A stretch of 64,000 bases of DNA. Source: Stutzerimonas sp. S1 (GTDB taxonomy: Bacteria; Pseudomonadota; Gammaproteobacteria; Pseudomonadales; Pseudomonadaceae). How positions within the stretch are numbered: position 1 is the first letter of the stretch; each line of letters begins with the position of its first letter. Location: positions 1 through 64,000 of the forward strand of contig NZ_JAOEIY010000009.1 in NCBI RefSeq assembly GCF_025966695.1, given 5' to 3'. The notes beneath the pieces were generated by a model that was not told the DNA's origin, did no database searches, and saw only the letters and a program-made list of their open reading frames with translations. The position numbers were made by a program, and so were the translations under genes. Positions 140 through 29,973 of this stretch are shown piece after piece.

Positions 140-1957
<1,818 letters not shown>

Positions 1958-1984
1958 GGGCAGGGTACCTCGCAAGTCGTGTCG

Positions 1985-3415
1985 CTAGAGAACGGGGGTG
2001 AACAGACGGGCCACCCCGTCGCGCAAGCGGATGGCCAGCGGGCGGGCGCGCAACGCCTTCGCCGATATCTCGCCCGACGCATCACGAGCGGCATCAAAAA
2101 GGGATGACAGCCGCCTAGACAACGCGGTGTCGTACACCTCCACATTGAACTCGAAGTTGAGGCGCAAACTGCGCGCATCCCAATTGGCCGAACCCAGGCA
2201 GCACCACGCTCCGTCTACCAGCATCAGCTTGCTGTGGTCGAACGGGCCAGGCCGTTCGAAGATGCGCACACCGTGCTCCAGCACCTGCCAGTAGTGGGCG
2301 CGCGCGGCCCATTGCACCGTGGGATGGTCGCCGTTTGCGGGCGTCAGCACGTCGATACGCACGCCGCGCAACGCGGCCGTACTCAGCGCCGCGATCATCG
2401 GCTGATCGGGGACGAAGTAAGGTGTCCAGATGCGCACCGAATGCTTCGCCGCGCTCAAAGCGCCCATGAAGGTCCAGCGCATCCGGTCCAGGGCCTCGTC
2501 GGGACCGGCCTCGATGCCGCGCGCCCAAGAGGTTCCTTGCTCATCAGCCATTACGGGCGGTTCGCCCCAGTAACCCTTGCTGAGCCGCTCGCCCGTGGTA
2601 TCGCACCAATCATCGGTGAAGCTCCGCATCAGATGCTCTACCACCGGCCCGCGCAGACGAAAGTGCAAATCGTGACAGGCCTGGCCCGGCGCATCGGGCC
2701 GCCAATACGAACCGAAGATGTTCATGCCGCCGGTGAAACCCGTCTCGCCATCGATCACCAGCAGCTTGCGGTGATTGCGCAGATGCGCGGCATGCAGGCG
2801 CGCGGGAATCAATGTCGGGTTGAACGTCGCCACCGGAACGCCGGCGCGCTGCAAGGCGCGGTAGGCGCTGCGGGGCGTCCAGCGGGCATACACGTCGTCG
2901 ATCAGCACCCGCACTTGCACGCCGCGCGCATGAGCCCGGCGCAGCGCATCGACGAACTGCGCCCCGATGCCTTGGCCGTCGAAGATGTACGAAGCCAGCG
3001 CGACGCTGTGCCGCGCCGATTCGATGGGAGCGAGCATGGCCGGGTAGGCCTGCTCGCCATCGATGAGCGGCTCGATGCGGTTGCCGCTGGTCAGCGACTG
3101 GCCGGTGGCGCGTCCCACCAGGTGGGCCAGACCGGCAAGCGGCGGCGATACAGCCTCGGGCATCGTGGGCGAGAGGTCCTGCCGAGCAGCAGGATCTGCC
3201 CCCGGGAAGAGCCGCCGCGCCCGCCGCTGGTAACGGTTGATGCCGAACAGCCCATACAGCAGCGAACCGCCCAGCGGCAACAAGGCGATCAGCAGTACCC
3301 ACAGCGTGGCCGATCGAGGGTCACGCTTGTAGATGACCGCGTGCCCCGCTGTGGGAACAGCGACCGCCAGCGACACGAGGGTGGCTGCCCATGTCAGCCC
3401 ATTGGGGTCGGACAC
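1985..3415 (-). CDS. Cardiolipin-synthase-like phospholipase D family protein
   Basis: 476-residue membrane protein of the cardiolipin synthase (Cls) type. Two N-terminal hydrophobic segments (about 8-24 and 37-54) are followed by two catalytic HKD motifs: HRKLLVID (His215, Lys217, Asp222) and HSKLMLVD (His394, Lys396, Asp401). Cls enzymes join two phosphatidylglycerol molecules into cardiolipin at the inner membrane. The GTG at 3415 is chosen as start because GGGAGG stands just before it, while the longer open frame upstream overlaps clpG and looks non-native. It lies 16 bases after clpG and 27 bases before ftsH, so co-transcription is likely. Its presence suggests membrane remodelling as part of the heat response, which is inference. 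A different PLD-family substrate cannot be excluded. Confidence 0.88.
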   Translation of the reverse strand: MSDPNGLTWAATLVSLAVAVPTAGHAVIYKRDPRSATLWVLLIALLPLGGSLLYGLFGINRYQRRARRLFPGADPAARQDLSPTMPEAVSPPLAGLAHLVGRATGQSLTSGNRIEPLIDGEQAYPAMLAPIESARHSVALASYIFDGQGIGAQFVDALRRAHARGVQVRVLIDDVYARWTPRSAYRALQRAGVPVATFNPTLIPARLHAAHLRNHRKLLVIDGETGFTGGMNIFGSYWRPDAPGQACHDLHFRLRGPVVEHLMRSFTDDWCDTTGERLSKGYWGEPPVMADEQGTSWARGIEAGPDEALDRMRWTFMGALSAAKHSVRIWTPYFVPDQPMIAALSTAALRGVRIDVLTPANGDHPTVQWAARAHYWQVLEHGVRIFERPGPFDHSKLMLVDGAWCCLGSANWDARSLRLNFEFNVEVYDTALSRRLSSLFDAARDASGEISAKALRARPLAIRLRDGVARLFTPVL

Positions 3416-3431
3416 GACAGCCTCCCATCGC

Positions 3432-6281
3432 TCAAGATCCGCCGCCCGCTGACTTCTTCTTGCGCGCAGGCTTGCTCTCGCCGTTCGGCGGTGCCTCGGC
3501 CACGTTCGCTGCATCGGGCTTTTCAGGCTCGGCCGGCTGCGCGGCTGGCTCCTGGCGCTCGAAGACCACCCGTTCGGCCTTGTCATCCCAGCGGGCGCTG
3601 GCGTGATCGGCCTTGCCGATGCCACCACCGAGCATCTCGCGTGCCAGCGCGGTTTCCAGCTCGCTGCGGATCAGCCGCTTGAGCTCGCGCGCGCCGAACT
3701 CGGGTTTGTAGCCTTCCTCCGCGAAGTGGTCGATCAAGGTCTGGTCGAAGGTCAACGTCACGCCCTGGCTGGCGGCGTTGCGGGCCACACGATCGAGCTG
3801 CAGGCCGACGATATGGCGGATCTCCTCCTTGCCCAGCGCATGGAAGACGATGATCTCGTCGATGCGGTTGAGGAACTCGGGGCGGAAGTGTCCGCGCAGC
3901 ACGTCCATCACCTCGGACTTGGTCTTCTCGTATTCCTCGCCGGCGGCGCCACGGGCCTTCAGCCGACGCTGGATGATGTCCGAGCCCAAGTTCGAGGTGG
4001 CGATGATGATGGTATTGGTGAAATCCACCACCCGGCCCTTGCCGTCGGTGAGCCGCCCGTCGTCGAATACCTGCAGCAGGATGTTGTAGACGTCGGGGTG
4101 CGCTTTTTCGATCTCATCGAGCAACAACACGCTGTAGGGTTTGCGACGCACCTTCTCGGTGAGCTGGCCGCCCTCGTCATAGCCCACATAACCCGGAGGC
4201 GCGCCCACCAGGCGTGCCACGGTATGGCGTTCACCGTACTCGGACATGTCGATGCGCAGCAGCGCGCCCTCATCGCCATAGATGGACTCGGCCAGTGCCT
4301 TGGCGAGTTCGGTCTTGCCCACACCCGTCGGCCCGAGGAACAGGAAGGTGGCCACTGGCTTGCCGCCTTCGCGCAGGCCCGCGCGCGACAGCCGCACGGC
4401 ATCGGCCACGGCACGTACTGCTTCGTCCTGGCCCACCAGGCGCTCGTGCAGCCGCTGCTCCAGATGCAGCAGCTTCTCGCGTTCTTCCACCGTCAGCTCG
4501 TTGACCGGAATGCCGGTCAGGCGCGAGACGATCTGCGCGACATGCTCGGCCTTGACTTCGGCGCTGCCCGAGGCGCGCTCGCGTTCCCATTCCTCGACGA
4601 GCTTCTTGAGTTCAGTCTCCTTGGCCTCGATGCGCTTGCCCAGCTCGGCGGCCTTGTCGTACTGCTTGCGCGAAGCCACATAGTCTTGCTCACGCCGCAG
4701 CTGGTGCAGTTCGGACTCCAGCTCTTGCACCGCCACCGGGCGGGCCGTGGCCGACAGCTTCACGCGTGCGGCCGCCTGGTCGAGCAGGTCGATGGCCTTG
4801 TCAGGCAAAAAGCGCGCGGTGATGTAGCGGTCCGACAACTCGGCGGCGGCGATGATCGCATCCTCGGTGATGCTGACCTTGTGGTGCGCCTCGAAGGTGT
4901 CGCGCAGGCCGCGCAGGATCATCATGGTCTGCGCTACCGTCGGCTCGGGCACCATCACCGGCTGGAAGCGACGCTCCAGCGCGGCGTCCTTCTCGATGTA
5001 CTTCTGATACTCGTTGAGCGTGGTGGCGCCGATCAGGTTCAGTTCGCCGCGCGCCATCATCGGCTTGAACACGTTGGCCACGTCCAGCCCGCCTTCGCCG
5101 CCACCCTGGCCTGCACCGACGATGGTGTGCACTTCGTCGATGAAGAGAATCAGCTCGCCCTGGTGCTCGGTCACTTCCTTGAGCACCTTCTGCACGCGCT
5201 CCTCGAACTCGCCGCGGTACTTGGCGCCGGCCACCATGGCATTGATGTTGAGTTCCACCAGGCGCTTGTCGCGCAGCGTCTCGGGCACTTCGCCGGCGAC
5301 CATGCGCTGCGCCAGCCCTTCGACGATGGCGGTCTTGCCGACGCCGGGCTCGCCGATCAGCACCGGGTTGTTCTTCTTGCGCCGGGCCAGCACTTCGATG
5401 GTCGTCTCGATCTCCTGCGCGCGGCCGATGACCGGATCGAGCTTGCCCTCGCGCGCCATCTTGGTGAGGTCGCGCGAATACTTGTCGAGTTCCGGCGTGT
5501 TGGTCGGCGTCTCGGCGCGGCCATCCTCGGCCCCTTTGCCGACCACCTTGCTTACCTGCTGGCGCAGCGCTTGCGGCGTGAGGCCGTAACGGCGCAGCAG
5601 GTTGGCCGCCAAACCTTCGCCTTCCTCGGCGAGCCCGATCAGGAAATGCTCCGGCCCGACATAAGAGTGGCCGAGTTCGTTGGAGGCCACGAAAGCACGG
5701 CTGAGCGCGTCCTTGACCCGGGGCGACACGCCGATCTCGCCCTCGAACGGCTTATCGCCGCGCTTGGCTTCGGATTCGATCTGGCGCTTGAGGTCATCGA
5801 CCTTGATCTTGAACTGCCCCAGGATGGTCTTGACCACGTCGCTGTCGGATAGCGCCAGCAGCAGGTGTTCGGTATCGACTTCGGCGCGCCCGAACTCTGC
5901 AGCGTGTCGGGCGGCCTCCTGCAATAGGGCCTCGGACTGTTCGCTGATACGGCTGGCCAGCCCGCTGCCGCGGCGGCGCGCCGTGCCCGCCGTTGCGGGA
6001 GCGGATTCGCCGAAAGACGCATCGACCACTTCGTCGGCATCAGCCGCCACGGACGGTGCATCGTCACCGATGCGGAAGAAGTCGCTGCCGAGGAAGTCTT
6101 CGAACAAACCGCTGCGCGAGCCAAACAGAGCCTCCAGCGGCGAGACGGTGCGCTTTTGCTGGCGCGCCAGTTGGCGATAGTGATCGTCACACAACAGCAT
6201 GGTGCTGTGGCGACCATTGAGATTGGCTTCCACCCGCACCGTGGCGGACTGGTCGCAGACTTGGCATTGTTTTCTGGCCAT
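3432..6281 (-). CDS. clpK: Stand-alone AAA+ disaggregase ClpG/ClpK
   Basis: 949-residue HSP100 protein. The N-terminus carries a cysteine/histidine cluster (C6, C9, C31, H34) typical of ClpK/ClpG and absent from ClpB. Two Clp N repeats follow (about 115-245), then AAA-1 with Walker A GEPGVGKT at 310-317, a short coiled middle domain (about 510-575) and AAA-2 with Walker A GPTGVGKT at 650-657. The C-terminus is a charged, Ala/Pro/Lys-rich tail. Family members dissolve protein aggregates and confer survival at lethal heat in Klebsiella, Pseudomonas and E. coli. I see no IGF/IGL-type ClpP-binding loop, which agrees with disaggregation rather than proteolysis. The ATG at 6281 follows AGGAGC; the upstream in-frame ATG lacks support. 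It lies downstream of hsp20 in the same direction. Confidence 0.95.
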
Positions 6282-6310
6282 GCTGATGCTCCTGTAAAGA
6301 TTGATTTGAC

Positions 6311-6335
6311 GAGGCGCCACCGATCACGGCGCCTC
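6311..6335 (-). terminator. Hairpin between hsp20 and clpK
   Basis: Perfect inverted repeat GAGGCGCC / GGCGCCTC (8 bp arms, 9-base loop) in the 94-base gap between hsp20 and clpK. No U-tract follows on the transcribed strand. It may be an mRNA processing or stabilising structure that sets the sHsp to ClpG ratio rather than a full terminator. Confidence 0.45.
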
Positions 6336-6375
6336 GACCTTCACCTGGTTTTTTCGGAGGACGAGCCGATCGGCG

Positions 6376-6945
6376 TCAGCCGTTGATCGGGATCGAGCGG
6401 CCCTGCTTGGGAGCACTGGCCTCGCGCTTTTCCATCGTGATCGTGAGTACGCCGTTCTTGAAAGCGGCCTTGATCGTGTCTTGGTTGGCATCGGTCGGCA
6501 GGTTCAGAGCGCGCTGAAAGCTGCCGTAGCAGCGCTCCACCCGGTGGAAACCGCCGTCTTTCGTTTCCTGCTCCTGACGCTTTTCACCGCGCACCAGCAG
6601 CACGTCGTTGTCGAGCGTGATCTGGATGTCTTTTTCCTCGACGCCGGGCACTTCCAGGGCGATCTTGTACTGCTTGTCGGTCTCCTGGATGTCCAGCGCC
6701 GGCTTCAGCAGGCCCGGCCAGTCCGACGGCCAGCGTGGCATGGCCAGCGCCGGGAAACCGAAGCCTCGAAACGTGTCGTCGAAGAGGCGGTCGATCTCGC
6801 GGTGCAATTGCAGGATGGGACTGACGGGCCCACCCGCCACCGGCAGGTCATTGCGCTGCACGGGCAGCGAGGCAGTGCTCTGTTGTTCTTCCTGCTCCTT
6901 CTTGAACCAGTTCCAGGGAGCCAACTTCTTGAAATCAATGTCCAT
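6376..6945 (-). CDS. hsp20: Small heat shock protein Hsp20
   Basis: 189-residue alpha-crystallin family holdase. The N-terminal arm (about 1-75) is followed by the alpha-crystallin domain (about 75-165, including DIQETDKQYKIALEVPGVEE and the GVLTITMEK strand). The C-terminal IXI anchor appears as I-P-I at 185-187. sHsps bind unfolding proteins in large oligomers and pass them to disaggregases such as the downstream ClpG. The start at 6945 follows GGAGG, five bases away. A possible 35-codon leader ORF ends one base before this start (see 6947-7054), and the HTH reading frame upstream runs 240 bases into this gene. Found in the same order in transmissible heat-resistance loci. Confidence 0.95.
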   Translation of the reverse strand: MDIDFKKLAPWNWFKKEQEEQQSTASLPVQRNDLPVAGGPVSPILQLHREIDRLFDDTFRGFGFPALAMPRWPSDWPGLLKPALDIQETDKQYKIALEVPGVEEKDIQITLDNDVLLVRGEKRQEQETKDGGFHRVERCYGSFQRALNLPTDANQDTIKAAFKNGVLTITMEKREASAPKQGRSIPING

Positions 6946-7262
6946 GTCATACCTCCAGAAGAAAAATTGAAGACTCTCGCTCGCTCCGTTTGCCTGCGGC
7001 GACGGACAGCGCGCCCAGACGACACGGAGTGTTCCGCTGACTTTGGCTGCTCATCTGTGCGTATCACCTCCTTCTTTCTGCCTGCTTGGATCTGATCATT
7101 GATCCATCGTTCGATTTCACTTTGACGAAACCGCCACGTCCCGCCGACCTTGAAGACCGGAATCTCCCCGTGCGAGGCGAGCCGGTAAAGCGTCCGCTTG
7201 CCGACTTTCAAGTAGGCAGCCAACTCGTCGAGTGTGAAGATCGCCTGCTGGCGCGCTGTCAT
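6705..7262 (-). CDS. Excisionase/MerR-type helix-turn-helix protein, C-terminus overlapping hsp20
   Basis: The first 50 or so residues are a clear helix-turn-helix of the excisionase/MerR type (FTLDELAAYLKVGKRTLYRL, then PVFKVGGTWRF and EIERWI). The ATG at 7262 follows a weak GGTGG site. Past about residue 55 the sequence becomes Arg/Ser-rich and non-native, and the frame runs on through the hsp20 start to 6705 (185 residues in all). The original stop may have been lost by a frameshift, so the working protein may be only the first 60 to 70 residues. First gene of the module and a candidate regulator. The CTTGCAA direct repeats just upstream may be its operator. Confidence 0.6.
   Translation of the reverse strand: MTARQQAIFTLDELAAYLKVGKRTLYRLASHGEIPVFKVGGTWRFRQSEIERWINDQIQAGRKKEVIRTDEQPKSAEHSVSSGRAVRRRRQTERARVFNFSSGGMTWTLISRSWLPGTGSRRSRKNNRALPRCPCSAMTCRWRVGPSVPSCNCTARSTASSTTRFEASVSRRWPCHAGRRTGRAC
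6947..7054 (-). CDS. Possible 35-codon leader ORF coupled to hsp20
   Basis: On the minus strand an ATG at 7054 stands 8 bases downstream of AAGGAGGTGAT, an extended match to the anti-Shine-Dalgarno sequence. The frame runs 35 codons and its TGA ends one base before the hsp20 ATG, so the hsp20 ribosome binding site lies inside its last codons. I do not recognise the peptide (starts MSSQSQRNTP, ends SIFLLEV). The arrangement suggests translational coupling or a leader region controlling hsp20. It could equally be a chance frame inside the 3' part of the HTH ORF. Confidence 0.35.
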   Translation of the reverse strand: MSSQSQRNTPCRLGALSVAAGKRSERESSIFLLEV

Positions 7263-7310
7263 ACCACCCCCACAAGTTCCGTCGTCACGCGGCCTCGCCT
7301 GAGGAAGTTC

Positions 7311-7327
7311 TTGCAAGACTTTGCAAG
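7311..7327 (-). promoter_or_regulatory. Direct repeat CTTGCAA, candidate operator
   Basis: Two copies of CTTGCAA (7327-7321 and 7317-7311 on the minus strand) with a 10-base period, one helical turn, about 50 bases upstream of the HTH gene. One-turn spacing is typical of binding sites for small dimeric or MerR/excisionase-like regulators. The link to the HTH protein is inference. Confidence 0.35.
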
Positions 7328-7329
7328 GT

Positions 7330-7362
7330 ATTGCGCTTACCAGGACAAACTTCAAGAGTCAA
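7330..7362 (-). promoter_or_regulatory. Candidate promoter of the heat-resistance module
   Basis: On the minus strand TTGACT (7362-7357) is immediately followed by CTTGAA (7356-7351). TTGACT has a weak -10 (TAAGCG) at 17 bases. CTTGAA is a perfect sigma-32 -35 element but no CCCCAT-type -10 is found at the right spacing. Mixed or weak promoter. Confidence 0.3.
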
Positions 7363-7485
7363 TGTACAGCGATCTCCCGCCCCATTGATGCAGGTCAACT
7401 GCTCAGGCAAGGCGCAGCGGGGCGGCCTGATCAGGCCATGGACAGCGCATGGCTCGTCAGCCTGCGTGTGCCACAGGCGCCTCGA

Positions 7486-7752
7486 TCAAACACCGATCCT
7501 CACGTTGTAGCCGAGTGCCCGCAGCCCCTTGCTCGTCTGCATGTTCCTTGGCGGAAACTCGTCTGGGCGCGCCCAGCCGACGATTTCCCCGAGGCTGCTC
7601 AGGCCAACGTGCGGAATTGCCCAGTCGTCGCTGCGGATCGCGTTCCAGAGTCGGGCCGAAACACTTCCGTTGCCCCAGACAACGTAGTTCAACAGTATCC
7701 GTCCTGCCAACACACCTTCCCGACACCGCCGCCGAAGGCCATGGCCCATCAA
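7486..7752 (-). CDS. Hypothetical protein resembling an RNA polymerase alpha C-terminal domain
   Basis: 88-residue frame whose last 65 residues look native. They resemble the helix-hairpin-helix fold of the RNA polymerase alpha C-terminal domain: SVSARLWNAIRS, then LGEIVGW, then TSKGLRALGYNV. Stand-alone alpha-CTD-like proteins occur on mobile elements. The first 18 residues are Arg-rich and doubtful, so this may be a 3' fragment of a longer gene. It is bordered by an IS66 fragment and lies in a degraded part of the island. Identification is by eye only. Confidence 0.4.
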   Translation of the reverse strand: MMGHGLRRRCREGVLAGRILLNYVVWGNGSVSARLWNAIRSDDWAIPHVGLSSLGEIVGWARPDEFPPRNMQTSKGLRALGYNVRIGV

Positions 7753-7763
7753 GCGGATTTTCC

Positions 7764-7862
7764 ATGCCCCCTCAGCGCCGTACCTACAGCAAATCTTTTA
7801 AGGCCCAGGTCATTCAGGAGTGTTCTGAACCCGGTGCCTCCATCGCAGACGTTGTAAGAGAG
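7764..7862 (+). pseudogene. 5' fragment of an IS66-family tnpA (OrfA)
   Basis: From the ATG at 7764 about 33 codons match the N-terminus of the IS66 helix-turn-helix protein TnpA (pattern RRTYSKSFKAQVIQEC, then PGASIADV). After residue 33 the similarity stops and the frame continues as unrelated sequence to a stop at 7916. No terminal repeats or other IS66 genes are present, so this is a deletion remnant. Confidence 0.65.
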
Positions 7863-7933
7863 ACCTCTAGTCAGGCCATTTCGAAGAATCAGATCGCTAA
7901 GTTTATGTGGTACTAGTGGTGCCACATGTTTGA

Positions 7934-8085
7934 TTATTTTTTGATTATTTTTTCCAGTTTTGCGAGCTTTGGTGAGATTGATATCTGGCAGTATCTGTTG
8001 CTTGGATTCTTTGTGAAGAAGTCTTGGTGATACTCCTCAGCCTCGAAAAATTCAGCTAACCTCTCTAGGGTGGTTACCACTGGGC
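7934..8085 (-). pseudogene. msrA: 3' fragment of msrA (peptide methionine sulfoxide reductase A)
   Basis: The last 49 codons read as the C-terminus of MsrA: AEFFEAEEYHQDFF, KNPSNRYCQ and SPKLAKLEK correspond to the conserved AEDYHQDYF...NP..GYC...PKL ending of the family. The catalytic N-terminal part with its GCFW motif is missing because the reading frame enters the left end of the IS21 element at 8086. Methionine sulfoxide repair would fit the stress cargo of such an island, but this copy is dead. Confidence 0.75.
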
Positions 8086-8158
8086 TGTTGCCGCTGACCG
8101 AAAACTGACCCAGTAGAGGCTGTTCTGCCGACTGAAAACTGACCCAGGTGTTCAACTG

Positions 8159-8183
8159 CTCCTGCTCAATTTTTGAGCAGGAG
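8159..8183 (+). promoter_or_regulatory. Hairpin sequestering the istA ribosome binding site
   Basis: Perfect 11-bp inverted repeat (CTCCTGCTCAA, loop TTT, TTGAGCAGGAG) directly before istA. The 3' arm contains the AGGAG Shine-Dalgarno sequence, so a transcript entering from outside would fold it shut. Comparable structures damp transposase translation in IS10 and IS50; for this element it is inference. Confidence 0.6.
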
Positions 8184-8191
8184 AACACAGG

Positions 8192-9700
8192 GTGATCAGT
8201 ATGGAAATGATGGGCAAAATCCGCCGGATGTATTTCCGCGACAAGCTGTCGCTGCATGAGATAGCCAAGCGCACCGGGTTGGCGCGCAACACGATTCGCA
8301 AGTGGGTCAGAGCACCTGAGGCCAAGCCGCCGGTCTACCAACGCCGCGCGATCTTCAACAAACTCAGCCCTTTTCACGCCACGCTGGAGCAGGCGCTAAA
8401 AGCCGATTCGCTGCGGCCCAAGCAACAGCAGCGCAGTGCCAAGGCGCTGTTGGCGCAAATCAAAGCCGAAGGTTATGACGGTGGCTACAGCCAGCTCACC
8501 GCGTTTATCCGTGCCTGGCGAGGGGGACAGGGCAAGGCGTCGCAGGCCTTTGTGCCGCTGACCTTTGCTCTTGGCGAGGCGTTTCAGTTTGACTGGAGCG
8601 AGGAAGGCTTGCTGGTCGGCGGCATTTACCGGCGTATGCAGGTGGCACATCTGAAGCTGTGTGCCAGCCGTGCGTTCTGGCTTGTGGCGTATCCGAGCCA
8701 GGGCCATGAGATGTTATTTGACGCCCATACACGCTCGTTCGGCTCCTTGGGCGGCGTGCCGCGCCGGGGCATCTACGACAACATGAAGACCGCCGTCGAC
8801 AAGGTCAATAAGGGCAAAGGCCGGGCGGTGAATGCGCGCTTTGCGGTGATGTGCGCGCATTACCTGTTCGATCCGGACTTCTGCAACGTCGCCGCTGGTT
8901 GGGAAAAGGGCATCGTTGAAAAGAACGTGCAAGACAGCCGCAGGCGTATCTGGCTAGACGCCCAGGACTGCCAGTTTCACTCCGTCGAGGAACTCAATGC
9001 CTGGCTGGGCCAGCGCTGCCGCGCGCTTTGGAACGAGCTGACGCACCCTCAATACAGCGGGCTGAGTGTGGCCGAAGTGCTGGAGTTGGAGCGCGCTGAA
9101 CTGATGCCTGTGCCAGCGCCATTCGACGGTTACGTCGAGCGGCCTGCGCGGGTCTCCAGCACCTGCCTGGTCAGCGTCGGGCGCAACCGCTACTCGGTGC
9201 CGTGTGAGTACGCGGGTAAGTGGGTCAGCAGCCGTTTGTATCCGACGCGAATCGAGGTGGTGGCTGACGACGCGCTGATCGCCAGCCATGTCCGCTTGCT
9301 GGATCGCGACCAGGTCAGCTATGACTGGCAGCACTACCTCCCGCTGATCGAACGCAAGCCCGGTGCGCTGCGCAACGGCGCGCCCTTTGCTGATCTGCCG
9401 GCGCCGCTGCGTCAGCTTAAGCACGGTCTGGGGCGTCATGCCGGCGGTGACCGGATCATGGCGCAAGTTCTGGCTGCCGTACCAGTCGCCGGGCTCGATG
9501 CGGTGCTGGTGGCTGTTGAGCTGGTACTGGAAAGCGGCAGCCTGAGCGCCGAACACATCCTCAATGTCGTGGCGCGCCTGGCCGCGACCGAACCACCACC
9601 CAGCGTCGAAACCCACTTGTCGCTCAAGGAAGCCCCCGTCGCTAACACGGCGCGCTACGACCGCCTGCGTGGCCAGGCCGAGGAGGTCGGTCATGCGTGA
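8192..9700 (+). CDS. istA: IS21-family transposase IstA
   Basis: 502-residue DDE transposase. The N-terminal helix-turn-helix (about 12-40, [17 protein letters not shown]) is followed by the RNase H-like catalytic core with acidic residues in [17 protein letters not shown] and GIVEKN, and a C-terminal beta-barrel region. It cuts and joins the IS ends together with IstB. The GTG at 8192 has AGGAG 9 bases upstream; the ATG at 8201 is an alternative start. The last 8 bases overlap istB, the usual translational coupling in this family. Intact, so the element may be active. Confidence 0.93.
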
Positions 9701-11842: not shown

Positions 11843-13102
11843 TTAGTAAAGCTGCAGCTTACTTTTCCTCCCGCGCTTTCCACGTCCCACCTGGCTATTG
11901 AGCAGCTTTTTAAAATGCTCCCAGCGAATCTCGTCGGTCTGGATGTTGTAAGTCAGGCCGCGTTCCATCTGCTCCAGTAATCTCAAACTCAGCGGCTTTT
12001 CCAAGTAGTGGTCTGCTGTGACCTCCGGAGCACCGCCCTCATGGCCCAGCAGATGGGCGATCGTGGACGGAGATATGCCTGACCGTTCCAGCCGGACGGC
12101 AAACGAACGACGGAGACTTTTAAAATTGAGCCCGCCATTAACGGCCGGCGGACAATGCTGACCGATGTATCCCGTTCCCGTACACGGCCCGCAGAAAAAA
12201 CGACTCGGATCGCGGGAGTATAAGTGCTTCGGGTCAAAGCTCAGCTCGCCGAAAAGCAATGCATCGTTGCCATCGGCCCGTCGTCGTTCCTCTACGAAAT
12301 TTATAAAACCCATCTCCACAAGCTTCGTGCAGATCGGAATCTGCCGTGCCGATGAGCCCGTTTTTAGCGACTTGTTGTAGCCGTTATCGTTTATGTCGAT
12401 GAGCTCTACGCCGTGGACATCCCGGATCACATCATGCACACGAAGCTGGCAGAGTTCATTGAGCCGCGCGCCGGTGTAGAGCCCGAGAGGAAGCAACCAG
12501 AACCGATACGGCTTGGCGTCTTGGTAGACCTTGGGCAGTGTGCCCGCGAGGTACTTTTGGTAAGGCCAGCCGGAGAGCATCTGAATCAGGTTGCTATCTA
12601 GAAATGGCTTGGTGACCTCGGCCTGTTTTGTACTGCAAGTAGCAACCTTGATCGCATCAGTAATCAGCTTGCTCTCCAGCGCCTCGTCCAGCATGCGATT
12701 GAACAGCTGGTAATAGGTCGTGAGGTTTGCGCCTTTACTTCCCGAAGCCGAGTTCTGCTTCAGTAACAATGGCAACTGATCCTTTAGACGCTGCACATCA
12801 GCTCGATCAAGCTCAGCGACTCGGCGTGTAGGGTTATCTCGGGTCAGGATGACCTTCAGCTTTTCCATTCGAGCCCGCAGCATATGCTCGGACTTTCCTG
12901 CGTAAGTGTTTTCTCGCAGGAAGCGGGACAGCGTAGTGTCCATGAACTCGGTAAGTAACGGTGAAGAGTGGAAGCGGTTGATCGCGTCCGTTACCGCGGA
13001 GATGTTCGCCAAGGCGATTCGCAAGTGCTCTTCATGGCCAGGCTCTACAATCAGGCTCAGGCCCTTATAAAAAGGAATGGAGATAGGGGACGTTACATTC
13101 AT
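11843..13102 (-). CDS. Tyrosine recombinase with a His-to-Lys change in box II
   Basis: 419-residue integrase. The catalytic half is recognisable: box I Arg in YTGARLNELCQLR (about 216-228), the beta-hairpin Lys in SLKTGSSARQIPI, the GH of LLGHEGG, and the nucleophile Tyr in ADHYLE. Box II, normally HxLRHTF, reads FKSLRRSF, so the first His is Lys while the Arg is kept. An N-terminal SAM-like core-binding domain precedes. It shares the WLLPLGLYTGARL block with the 813-residue recombinase at 13268-15709, so the two probably derive from a common ancestor. The ATG at 13102 has GAGG seven bases away, buried in a hairpin. Likely acts in island integration or excision. Confidence 0.88.
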   Translation of the reverse strand: MNVTSPISIPFYKGLSLIVEPGHEEHLRIALANISAVTDAINRFHSSPLLTEFMDTTLSRFLRENTYAGKSEHMLRARMEKLKVILTRDNPTRRVAELDRADVQRLKDQLPLLLKQNSASGSKGANLTTYYQLFNRMLDEALESKLITDAIKVATCSTKQAEVTKPFLDSNLIQMLSGWPYQKYLAGTLPKVYQDAKPYRFWLLPLGLYTGARLNELCQLRVHDVIRDVHGVELIDINDNGYNKSLKTGSSARQIPICTKLVEMGFINFVEERRRADGNDALLFGELSFDPKHLYSRDPSRFFCGPCTGTGYIGQHCPPAVNGGLNFKSLRRSFAVRLERSGISPSTIAHLLGHEGGAPEVTADHYLEKPLSLRLLEQMERGLTYNIQTDEIRWEHFKKLLNSQVGRGKRGRKSKLQLY

Positions 13103-13107
13103 ATATA

Positions 13108-13124
13108 CCTCACGGTGGGTGAGG
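13108..13124 (-). promoter_or_regulatory. Hairpin over the recombinase ribosome binding site
   Basis: Inverted repeat CCTCAC-CCACC-GTGAGG on the minus strand, directly before the ATG at 13102. The GAGG of the Shine-Dalgarno sequence is part of the 3' arm, so folding would mask it and limit recombinase translation. Confidence 0.45.
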
Positions 13125-13137
13125 CTCGAGATTATTA

Positions 13138-13153
13138 CTGTATAAATGACCAG
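13138..13153 (-). promoter_or_regulatory. LexA (SOS) box-like site before the 419-residue recombinase
   Basis: CTGTATAAATGACCAG has the CTG-N10-CAG layout and differs at 2 of 16 positions from the site in front of recN in this window (CTGTATAAATAGCCAG). On the minus strand it lies just after TTGACT and before AT-rich -10-like sequence, where LexA would block transcription. This suggests recombinase expression rises on DNA damage. Confidence 0.6.
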
Positions 13154-13190
13154 TCAAGATAATCTATTGGAAAAATACATTCGATAGTTT

Positions 13191-13211
13191 TTATTGACAC
13201 TTTGTCAATAA
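13191..13211. promoter_or_regulatory. Inverted repeat overlapping a -35-like sequence
   Basis: TTATTGACA-CTT-TGTCAATAA, perfect 9-bp arms. Each arm carries TTGACA. It lies between the two recombinase genes, upstream of the 419-residue one, and could be an operator or a recombinase arm site. Confidence 0.4.
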
Positions 13212-13224
13212 TTATGGGATGTGT

Positions 13225-13251
13225 AAAAAGGGCAGGAGCAGGGCTCCCGCC
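13225..13251 (-). terminator. Terminator of the 813-residue recombinase gene
   Basis: On the minus strand the stem GGCGGGAG-CCCTG-CTCCTGCC (one G-U pair) is followed by CTTTTT, 16 bases after the stop at 13268. Confidence 0.75.
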
Positions 13252-13267: not shown

Positions 13268-15709
13268 TTATGCGTACGATTTCCAGTGGCGCTTAGGAGC
13301 TCGCACGTTCGGGAATGGCGTGCCCACCGGCCGCCCGACTTTAAAGTCACCTTGTGCTTTCTGGAGCCCCTGATAGTGCCGGTAATGGATGTGATCCAAG
13401 CCAAGGCCGAAATCGATTTTGTCGAGCTCGTCCTTGAGGACGCCTGCCGGATAGCAGTCGCCATAGCCGCCAGTTGTACTTTTATCAGCGTGACCCACGA
13501 GTGCTTTAGCTTTCGCGAGGTCGAGGTTCTGTCTGCGGAATTGGTTGATAAAAGTATGCCGTAGGCCGTGATACGTCAGGCCCTCCTCTCCGAGGCCGCA
13601 GAGCCCCAAGTAGCCATGACTGCCCTGGCTTGAGCCCAGGTACCAACGACTCGCAACGTGCCCAGGAGAAAGATCACCGTAGACACGGATATTTTCGAAA
13701 AGAGGAGCTTTCATATCCTGCTTAACTATGTCCAGGCGAGCTTGGTGATAGTCGAGGAAGCCTGTCTCGATCAGCTGCTTGTGAATGGGCACTAGCCGTT
13801 CAGAGTCGGATGTTTTGAGTTGCTTCGACCCTGTCCGATTGATGCTGATGATCCAAACGCCGAGCTCCTGCCGAATGTCTTCGAGCCGTAGCTGGCACAG
13901 CTCGCTGAGCCTCGCGCCGGTATAGAGGCCTAGCAGCGGTAACCAAAACTTGTAGTCGTCCAGACGCCAGCGAGGCGGCTGGGTCAGCGTGTAGGCCGGG
14001 CCGTGAAGCAGCTTCTCGATTTGGCTTGGGCTATATGTGCGCTTCCTAGGCGCCTCGGCACCTTTCGTGCTGAACGCCAATCCGGCCGCGATGTTTTCGG
14101 TGATGTAACCTTGATCATGGGCGTAGGTGACAAGCGCCCTCGCCAATTCGAAAAACTTCTTCGCGGTGCGAGGGTTGATTGGCTCGAACTTACCGTCGCT
14201 AATGATCTTACTTAGCGGCTGGTTACGCGTGGCACGGAGGCGATGCCGGTTCTTCGGATAGCTGCGCAAATGATCGCGTAGTGTGTTGAATTCGGCACGA
14301 CTCAGCGTTCCGACTTGCCGGTGCCCGCCAAGCAGTTCGCACAGGCCTGCCAGGCGGGCCCTTGCGGTAATGCGAGTCCGCGGATTGGCCCAGGCTCCTT
14401 CACGAATTTGCCGTTCTTCGTATTCCTTTACCAATGCTGCGAGGCTCAGCCCTGCGTTTGGACTGCTCGTCGGCGAGACAATGCGTTCGCTGACCGAAGG
14501 TTGCGTAAAGAGGGTTTCAAGCTTCGCTTTCTGCGCGTCGGGCAGAACGCTCCCGAGCGCATTCAGCAACGCGAGCGTGCCTGGATCCTGTGGCGGTGCC
14601 ACAGTATCTGTCGGCGAGTTCAGCTCCGGAATCGTCTGCATAGGCTCGGTGGTTGCAGCAGAACCCAACATCCGCCGAACCAGGTCACCGATTTCCTGCA
14701 TGGCTTGGGCGTAAGGATCTTGGTGATCGTCTTCCTGAAAGTAACGCAACAGCACCTTATCAACCTTCTGCAGCGTATACGTCAGCATGAGGACCGCAAT
14801 GATGATGGAGCTAGTGAGCAGCTCAACCCGAAAGCTTTTCTTTTCTCTCAGATGCGCTTTCATGCACAGCGGATCAAGTTCGATAAGCATCACATAAAGC
14901 CCCGACTCCTCCTGCACCAAGAGCGCTCGATCAATGATGCGCAGCTTCAGATGCATCGCGTTGGCTTGCTGAAGATGAAAATGCAAAGCTTGCCGAGATT
15001 GCGGTAGTGCTTGGGGGATGTGCATGAGATTCCGACCCTGGTCTGGGCGGGCATGGCACAGGTATTCATAAAGCGTCATCGCTGCAAACGCAGGAGATTC
15101 TTTCGAATAGCGCCCTGGAGAGGGTGGGACTGTCTCGAGTACATCAAGGGCAGCGTAAATGTACCGGGCAGCGTCGCTCGCCACGTTCTGGTTGCTGGTT
15201 CCGAGCGGCCAGTCAAAGCGTACGAACCCGACCCCAAGCGCTTTTACCAGTGCGGGCGTTGGTGTCAGTGCGAAGAAAATTTCGCCCCCTGGCTCGTGGC
15301 TATAGAGCACTACACGCTCGGCACTCTCTTTCATCATGCGAGCGTGGGCGACCGAAAGGTCTTGGTTCGCGAGCTTCATTGGCGACGGGCGGACTTTCCA
15401 AACTCGGTCGGCGAATTTAAGTGCTTCCGCTACCGCAAGGTGAAACCTTTGGAGGTCAACCAGCAGGCGGTCAGAAAAGAGCTCGACGTAGTGCTCTGTT
15501 GCTTTGGCAAGGAAGTGCTCGAAAGAAGCATTCAGGTACTTAGCGAGATCGCGGGCCAGGGCTTCGTCGTGGCTGAGCGACCACCGGATTTGCGCAGGCA
15601 GTTTCGGGTTGGCCGCGAAATGCTTCGGGAATGTGAGGTAGTACTGGAAGCCAGAGTTGGCTTGATAGACCAGGTGGGGGACACCTGTTTTGCTTTGGCG
15701 CTTGGACAT
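13268..15709 (-). CDS. Large tyrosine recombinase (phage-type integrase) with long N-terminal extension
   Basis: 813-residue integrase. The C-terminal third (about 500-745) has all catalytic residues: Arg in YTGARLSELCQLR, Lys in KQLKTSDSERLVPI, box II HGLRHTF, GH in LVGHAD, and Tyr in TTGGYGD. A SAM-like core-binding domain precedes it. The first 400 or so residues include an N-terminal YQANSGFQYYLTFP stretch like the DUF6538 segment of some integrases and a hydrophobic stretch near 310-330 (SSIIIAVLMLTYTL). The ATG at 15709 follows AAAAGG; an earlier in-frame start lacks support. It lies about 100 bases from the 3' end of ssrA, the position expected for the integrase of an element inserted in that gene. 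Confidence 0.92.
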   Translation of the reverse strand: MSKRQSKTGVPHLVYQANSGFQYYLTFPKHFAANPKLPAQIRWSLSHDEALARDLAKYLNASFEHFLAKATEHYVELFSDRLLVDLQRFHLAVAEALKFADRVWKVRPSPMKLANQDLSVAHARMMKESAERVVLYSHEPGGEIFFALTPTPALVKALGVGFVRFDWPLGTSNQNVASDAARYIYAALDVLETVPPSPGRYSKESPAFAAMTLYEYLCHARPDQGRNLMHIPQALPQSRQALHFHLQQANAMHLKLRIIDRALLVQEESGLYVMLIELDPLCMKAHLREKKSFRVELLTSSIIIAVLMLTYTLQKVDKVLLRYFQEDDHQDPYAQAMQEIGDLVRRMLGSAATTEPMQTIPELNSPTDTVAPPQDPGTLALLNALGSVLPDAQKAKLETLFTQPSVSERIVSPTSSPNAGLSLAALVKEYEERQIREGAWANPRTRITARARLAGLCELLGGHRQVGTLSRAEFNTLRDHLRSYPKNRHRLRATRNQPLSKIISDGKFEPINPRTAKKFFELARALVTYAHDQGYITENIAAGLAFSTKGAEAPRKRTYSPSQIEKLLHGPAYTLTQPPRWRLDDYKFWLPLLGLYTGARLSELCQLRLEDIRQELGVWIISINRTGSKQLKTSDSERLVPIHKQLIETGFLDYHQARLDIVKQDMKAPLFENIRVYGDLSPGHVASRWYLGSSQGSHGYLGLCGLGEEGLTYHGLRHTFINQFRRQNLDLAKAKALVGHADKSTTGGYGDCYPAGVLKDELDKIDFGLGLDHIHYRHYQGLQKAQGDFKVGRPVGTPFPNVRAPKRHWKSYA

Positions 15710-15770
15710 GATGGCATACCTTTTGGATTCACAGACGGACTGTGAGTAATCCAATGCCATCAAATCTGGG

Positions 15771-15807: not shown

Positions 15808-16186
15808 TGGTGGAGCCGGGGGGATTTGAACCCCCGTCCGCCAGCTCTCCGCTATCGGTTCTACATGCTTAGCCAGATCTACTGAGTTAACTCCGCGCCG
15901 CCCGATTGGCAGGGTGCTTAGAGCGAGCTGTATGAGTTTTAGCCGTTACGTCTACAGCGAACTTGGCGGCGATCCTGTTCTATCTGACGGTCATTTCGGG
16001 TTTACAGGCATCCCCTAGTGACCGCTGGCGCCGAAGCGACCAGATGAAGGTTAGGCGGCTAGCGCGTACCCTTCGTAGTTGTCGTCGTTGGCAACTATAG
16101 GTTTGCAACAGTTTATTTACGAGTTCTGTTACCAACTCGGCATGCCCCTCAAGTTTCGTTACCGGCGTCGAATCCTAATCGGCCCC
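15808..16186 (-). ncRNA. ssrA: tmRNA
   Basis: 379-nt transfer-messenger RNA that rescues stalled ribosomes with SmpB. The 5' end GGGGCCG pairs with the 3' CGGCTCC of the acceptor stem, and the 3' end carries the T-arm GGTTCAAATCC and an encoded CCA. The tag reading frame starts at the resume codon GCC and encodes ANDDNYEGYALAA then TAA, ending in the ALAA degron seen by ClpXP and FtsH. The 3' half of ssrA is a common attachment site for genomic islands, and two recombinase genes lie directly beside it. Confidence 0.95.
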
Positions 16187-29957: not shown

Positions 29958-29973
29958 CTGGCTATTTATACAG
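29958..29973 (-). promoter_or_regulatory. LexA (SOS) box of recN
   Basis: On the minus strand CTGTATAAATAGCCAG, CTG-N10-CAG, 24 bases upstream of recN. It fits the Pseudomonas LexA motif. Confidence 0.75.

Follow-up and report, generated by a model that had tools for sequence, protein, structure and literature searches.

A predicted LexA operator at one of two paired tyrosine recombinase genes in an ssrA island of Stutzerimonas

The integrases of integrons are reportedly under SOS control, as Guerin is said to have described in 2009. Integron intI promoters carry a LexA box, which in some genes partly overlaps the -10 element (Cambray 2011, PMC3108266), and it is for integrons that control of a recombinase directly by LexA is established. 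At one end of GInts, the ginABCD islands, lie several different tyrosine recombinases; these islands also have imperfect direct repeats and variable cargo, and have been studied in P. stutzeri DSM 4166 (PMC5385486). Their gin genes form a co-transcribed four-gene operon with three integrases, and no circle was detected when any one of the gin genes was mutated (PMC5385486). SE elements also have more than one catalytic tyrosine recombinase in their recombination module, which consists of four genes (intA-tfp-intB-srap); they have inverted terminal repeats and no empty site, and in SE-6283 the operon and CDS4 were called essential. The main text of PMC5385486 mentions neither SOS nor LexA, and that of the SE-element paper mentions neither LexA, SOS nor tmRNA.

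LexA control has been proposed for recombinase elements of Pseudomonas, the integron-like elements inserted in rulAB; in that case the LexA site belongs to the rulAB operon that they interrupt, and the T3SE-integron integrases have none of their own (PMC4542609). In Klebsiella, excision of GIE492, an island at a tRNA site, was up to 100-fold higher with mitomycin C, and no LexA motif was found before its integrase (PMC4891358). For other islands, DNA damage is reported to affect excision in a manner that is unclear in most cases (PMC4891358). The tLST, or locus of heat resistance, combines clpK, ftsH, cardiolipin synthase and hsp20 in a protein homeostasis module (PMC8290217).

We analysed a window of 64,000 nucleotides (the whole stretch of DNA under study) from Stutzerimonas sp. 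S1, in which a tyrosine recombinase gene, P0001, carries a predicted LexA box on its promoter, like the integrase genes of integrons. Unlike these, P0001 is one of a pair in a large ssrA island. Its partner, P0002, scored 19.8 bits with the IntI model TIGR02249 (cut-off, 265), which was not among the P0001 matches; neither was placed in the IntI family. Like a GInt, the element is a genomic island with several different tyrosine recombinases, repeats and variable cargo. It has two adjacent recombinase genes and a third, integrase-like gene, P0003, elsewhere in the island instead of a contiguous ginABCD operon, and this gene arrangement sets it apart. It shares with SE elements the presence of more than one catalytic tyrosine recombinase, but differs in that its att repeats are direct, a relative has the empty site, and there is no four-gene module. 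In contrast to the rulAB case, the element carries a LexA site of its own, and unlike GIE492 it carries it before the integrase-like gene. Its cargo has the same four genes together as the tLST, a comparison that covers the visible part only, the contig ending at base 1. A search of the open-licence literature returned no paper on this island pair, its LexA box or a Stutzerimonas tmRNA-integrase genomic island. The LexA switch looks as if it works like that of integron integrases, in an element that by the features tested looks to be neither integron, GInt nor SE element, and in an arrangement that looks new.

The recombinase pair and its island

The features of the island in the window that are needed here are the following.

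11843..13102, minus strand: P0001, 419-aa tyrosine recombinase (ATG at 13102-13100; PF00589, E 4.9e-11; PHROG integrase)
13268..15763, minus strand: P0002, 831-aa tyrosine recombinase that adjoins att; start codon uncertain; no LexA box
15808..16186, minus strand: ssrA (tmRNA), the integration target
15808..15831, minus strand: att core copy, 3' end of ssrA (second copy, G000:C11:48163-48190)
140..6945, minus strand: heat-stress cargo (ftsH, cardiolipin synthase, clpK, hsp20)

The first-pass annotation had assigned the recombinase to an island with heat/stress cargo; the sequence supports this and shows the island to be att-bounded and located in ssrA. In this genome (G000), contigs C22 and C11 share a 24-bp att repeat: the last 24 bases of ssrA recur, with one difference, at C11:48163-48190. 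When five right flanks were compared with 30 ssrA loci of the genus, the right flank of G000 shared, over 1393 bp from base 1, 90% identity with the DNA that follows ssrA in G030, a genome without the pair, and the right flank of G029 likewise matched G013 at 77%. Those of G024 and G036 gave short matches only, and that of G003 gave none. The direct att repeats, of which one forms part of the 3' end of ssrA, together with the empty site of G030 identify a genomic island. The att copies are 58-82 kb apart in G003, G024, G029, G033 and G036, and 153 kb apart in G028. An island-type second att copy was found in 19 of the 23 genomes with the pair against 1 of the 33 others (Fisher P 4e-10); the exception, G018, has a P0002 remnant. 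It was not found in four genomes with the pair (G004, G006, G020 and G043). The window contains 15.8 kb of the island, with ftsH, cardiolipin synthase, clpK, hsp20, an IS21-type IstB and the pair; we infer that C11:1-48162 is the remainder.

In G011, G016, G017 and G025, which lack the pair, the ssrA end is also duplicated, though the bases flanking its second copy differ; other elements may use ssrA too. Inside the G036 island, a degenerate att copy (L089:10058) and a different integrase (L089:10890-11678) indicate tandem or nested elements.

P0001 had been called "the island recombinase". It does belong to the island but is not its sole recombinase: P0001 and P0002 co-occur in an identical set of 23 of the 56 genomes of the genus, which makes this island family common. 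P0002 follows ssrA directly here and in 19 of the 23, with both genes together at the att end. In G003, G008, G028 and G054, P0002 is 8-63 kb from the ssrA end, and other elements seem to have come between them. P0002 is interrupted in G028 and G043.

The catalytic set of tyrosine recombinases is R-K-H-R-H-Y. In P0001, R213, K247, R331, H354 and Y366 were invariant in 11 of 11 homologues, and the box-II His was replaced by Lys or Arg in all 11. In P0002, R618, K650, H732, R735, H758 and Y767, the full set, were invariant in six of six. A search against sequences of solved structures gave weak tyrosine recombinase matches for P0001, the best being lambda integrase (E 0.062), and XerC/XerD-type matches for P0002. 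Structure prediction was unusable (mean pLDDT 38 for seven P0001 sequences and 37 for six P0002 sequences). These residues bear on a reading in which LexA controls P0001 but P0002 alone recombines att, while P0001 has given up island movement for some other role (multimer resolution or DNA capture, for example) or only accompanies its neighbour. The Lys/Arg substitution in P0001 and the full set in P0002 would agree with it, whereas the occurrence of both genes in the same 23 genomes and the five invariant residues of P0001 argue against it, and we regard it as quite improbable.

P0001 had matches in 35 of 398 genomes of the family (E 1e-40). In the samples of the order and the class, G000 itself was the only match (1 of 390 and 1 of 369; E 1e-50). 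Homologues were found in 18 plasmid records and 4 phage records, all with less than 60% identity.

The LexA box and promoter of P0001

The region upstream of P0001 and the reference site before recN have the following features.

13138..13153, minus strand: predicted LexA box of P0001, reading CTGGTCATTTATACAG on the gene strand
29958..29973, minus strand: recN LexA box, reference site outside the island, reading CTGTATAAATAGCCAG
13152..13157, minus strand: predicted -35, TTGACT, overlapping the LexA box (by eye; conserved as TTNACT)
13129..13134, minus strand: predicted -10, TAATCT, spacer 17 (by eye)
13131-13136, minus strand: alternative -10, AATAAT, spacer 15 (by eye)
13192..13210, unstranded: conserved palindrome TATTGACAAAGTGTCAATA (also written TATTGACAAnTTGTCAATA), from sequence comparison of upstream regions
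13107..13125, minus strand: leader hairpin (fold -10.5 kcal/mol, z -3.9) whose 3' arm holds the Shine-Dalgarno GAGG (13108-13111)
13231..13251, minus strand: terminator-like hairpin after P0002 (2 such sites in the scan vs 3.4 expected, weak alone)

The 16-mer CTGTATAAATGACCAG was present exactly where it had been reported, upstream of the 419-aa recombinase gene, and its two-base difference from the recN box was confirmed, both differences being at inner positions. P0001 starts 36 bp downstream of the predicted box; the recN box is 24 bp upstream of the recN ATG, and the identity of recN is clear (NCBIfam NF008121, 665 bits vs a cut-off of 418). The pattern CTGTATAWNNNNNCAG had two matches in the window against none in 100 shuffles, 13 in the whole genome against none with a reversed control, and 138 in 14 genomes of three genera against 7 with the reversed control. 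The looser pattern CTGTAYRNNNNNNCAG was far less specific (21 vs 13 control matches in this genome). The strict matches in the genome include sites before lexA (two), recA, recN, imuA, topB and a UmuD-like gene, the names lexA, recA and imuA having been assigned by eye and imuA being without a Pfam match. The fixed consensus CTGTATATATATACAG, with up to three mismatches, matched the recN box alone in the window and missed the P0001 box.

For scoring, a matrix was made from nine other SOS-type boxes of this genome, excluding the island site. The P0001 box scored 18.9 bits, within the range of the nine host boxes when each was left out in turn (13.7-24.9 bits), and all other 16-mers of the window except the recN site scored at most about 8.3-8.4 bits. 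The same scan found no LexA box for P0002. Under simple base models, 0.00003-0.0003 matches at 18.9 bits are expected per 150 bp and 0.9-7.5 per 4.2 Mb; since several chance matches could thus occur in the genome, place and conservation decide, and not score alone.

The place is that of a predicted promoter. The box occupies the 17-bp spacer of the promoter read by eye, although the automatic promoter scan reported neither its -35 nor its -10; transcription is predicted to start near 13122. We considered whether the box serves another gene and dropped this, because P0002 is read in the same direction and its end is some 115 bp away from the box, leaving P0001 as the only gene seen downstream.

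Conservation was seen in several collections. CTG-N10-CAG was at the same distance upstream in all 23 near-full P0001 orthologues from the genus search (L020-L042; the starts of L041 and L042 were set by alignment, and the spacing to ATG is the same within 3 bp). It also preceded P0001 at each of the 17 named-collection loci with an intact N-terminus (L050-L066, from genomes partly shared with the genus search) and in L069 and L070 from another genus (57-59% identity), and L076 and L077 have it as well. Two IMG/VR contigs (91% identity) carry the box with the pair region. Among the upstream regions read, all those of orthologues with 57% identity or more kept CTG-N10-CAG, while the interior of the box drifts. 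Among 14 distinct haplotypes, no variation was seen in the six CTG/CAG columns, whereas only 2 of the 10 columns inside the box and 4 of the other 56 were invariant; the spacing was constant. Presence of a box was a condition for entering this scripted alignment set; the counts free of that selection are 23 of 23, 17 of 17, and L069, L070, L076 and L077. Weaker boxes were found in the 91% group (17.3 bits) and in L041 and L069 (15.2 bits).

Nine distant homologues whose upstream DNA was read had no box, six at 46-55% identity (L071-L075 and L078) and three at 33-37% (L079-L081). Partial or distant matches (L043-L048) had none either, though their starts are not comparable, and L049, L067 and L068 gave no usable match. 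A divergent LexA motif as the reason for the absence in genus g5 was rejected, because the six g5 genomes searched had 5-11 ordinary LexA boxes each, against 0-2 control matches. Judged from these upstream regions, the box is an old, retained feature of one clade and not of the whole family.

A CTG-N10-CAG box within the score range of the host's own SOS boxes, overlapping a predicted promoter and conserved among orthologues, is what a member of the LexA (SOS) regulon would have. The description of the site as an SOS-type operator is therefore very likely correct by score, rarity, promoter position and conservation; what it had not seen are other conserved control elements. That the motif arose by chance or is the operator of another island-borne repressor is very improbable: the box is imperfect against the consensus, yet its score is in the host range, the control counts are low, and CTG and CAG are kept while the interior drifts. 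LexA control of P0001 is, on the same evidence, highly probable.

LexA is probably not the sole control of P0001, for the palindrome and the hairpin at the ribosome-binding site are conserved too. The palindrome is kept more deeply than the LexA box, with small changes in L071-L073, L075, L078 and L079. Sought as a possible recombinase site near att, it had one occurrence per locus wherever the pattern matched; the pattern missed L025, L065, L074 and L081, and in L080 the palindrome is about 490 bp from the gene. Leaders of the LexA clade have a clear hairpin, with z from -3.9 to -4.3 (the L041- and L042-type leaders form other stems, at z -4.0 and -4.3); in g5 the signal was weaker, at z -2.6 and -1.5. 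Hairpins at the equivalent place after P0002 were seen in relatives by eye only. An inverted repeat before P0002, at about 15700-15760, was also noticed by eye.

Proposed SOS switch and its alternatives

In the model that we favour, host LexA would occupy the spacer of the P0001 promoter and repress the second recombinase of the island-mobility pair. DNA damage or incoming single-stranded DNA would activate RecA, leading to self-cleavage of LexA and synthesis of P0001. The hairpin at the ribosome-binding site, and perhaps the terminator after P0002, would limit leaky expression. P0002, adjacent to att and without a box, would be expressed independently. LexA would then gate one component only, because P0001 is one of a pair and P0002 has no box. 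If P0001 is the limiting partner, SOS would gate recombination at the ssrA att copies. We give this model as a whole a probability of about 0.7. It is built on the box and its conservation, the pair, the att repeats and the empty site, from which LexA binding, repression, partner limitation and excision or integration are inferred.

Gating by a limiting second recombinase would have parallels in GInts and SE-6283, and there is about an even chance that excision or integration rises with SOS. SOS-induced excision, which had been suggested from the box, is plausible. DNA damage probably turns P0001 on, and this may help the island and its heat-tolerance genes to move; that the SOS response speeds the spread of the heat cargo is a tentative and rather doubtful proposal. 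Since the cargo includes heat tolerance, Shango-type defence and catabolic genes, the proposed switch is relevant to the way in which tolerance of stress is spread by stress itself. With one short operator, a single mutation would suffice to test the link between damage and excision. P0002 may be able to act without its partner, and if only one of the two is gated, the island would allow the role of the second recombinase to be addressed cleanly.

The operator could instead serve establishment: incoming single-stranded DNA would induce SOS in the recipient and P0001 would help integration into ssrA, with little role in a settled host. The G036 island has a TraI_2 relaxase gene (L088:4141-5697), which we take to be of MOBH type and which hints at conjugal transfer. 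Conjugal entry of this kind would suit establishment, as would the fact that in 19 of 23 genomes both recombinases lie beside att, but nothing in the sequence separates the excision from the integration direction, and we consider this reading improbable.

Other parts of the island bear on a further alternative. They were located on the following contigs.

C11:3266-3281 (L094): predicted second island LexA box, 25.8 bits, before a 144-aa gene divergent from P0003
L094:3352-3786 (G000:C11): the 144-aa gene
L094:1891-2805 (G000:C11) and L083:11186-12118 (G036): P0003, third integrase-like protein (weak PF00589), away from the pair within the island

The 144-aa gene was present in 17 of 56 genomes, 14 of which have the pair, and its product had no match in Pfam, PHROGs, NCBIfam or solved structures. 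The second box was present in 12 of 12 loci read, with eight distinct upstream sequences, and also counts in favour of the preferred model. P0003 (at least 67% identity) was found in 20 of the 23 genomes with the pair and in 2 of the 33 others; 5 of 13 P0003 loci were without the box and the 144-aa gene in the flank examined. The island might have an SOS programme of its own, in which the second of the two or three recombinases is the only one under LexA, damage alters the complex and the direction of the reaction and also switches on the 144-aa gene, and P0001 is a recombinase-fold directionality factor and not a plain integrase. This version is unlikely, and the switch acting through P0001 as limiting partner is preferred.

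Cargo and other SOS-linked loci

The identity of clpK in the heat-stress cargo is clear (NF033606, 2149.7 bits vs a cut-off of 1900). Shango-type SngA, SngB and SngC are encoded close to the distal att copy of the G000 island (L091:9503-15472, G000:C11), and proteins of G036 (L088/L089) start nearly like them. The C11 part of the island also has meta-cleavage catabolic genes, for a BphC-like dioxygenase, an alpha/beta hydrolase and a DmpG-like aldolase (L094:4653-6520 and L091:4095-5117).

Elsewhere in the genome, a LexA-type box (L100:6203-6218, G000:C15) was found before a 301-aa phrog_7003 protein beside a 527-aa integrase (region 7252-8835); this locus is perhaps another SOS-linked element. 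In six loci of the 91% islands (L053, L054, L055, L057, L061 and L063), a UmuC/UmuD-like pair was recognized by eye downstream of P0001, accompanied in five of the six by an AT-rich LexA-like box. An MvaT-type silencer (PF22055) was also found downstream of P0001 in L053, the locus scanned.
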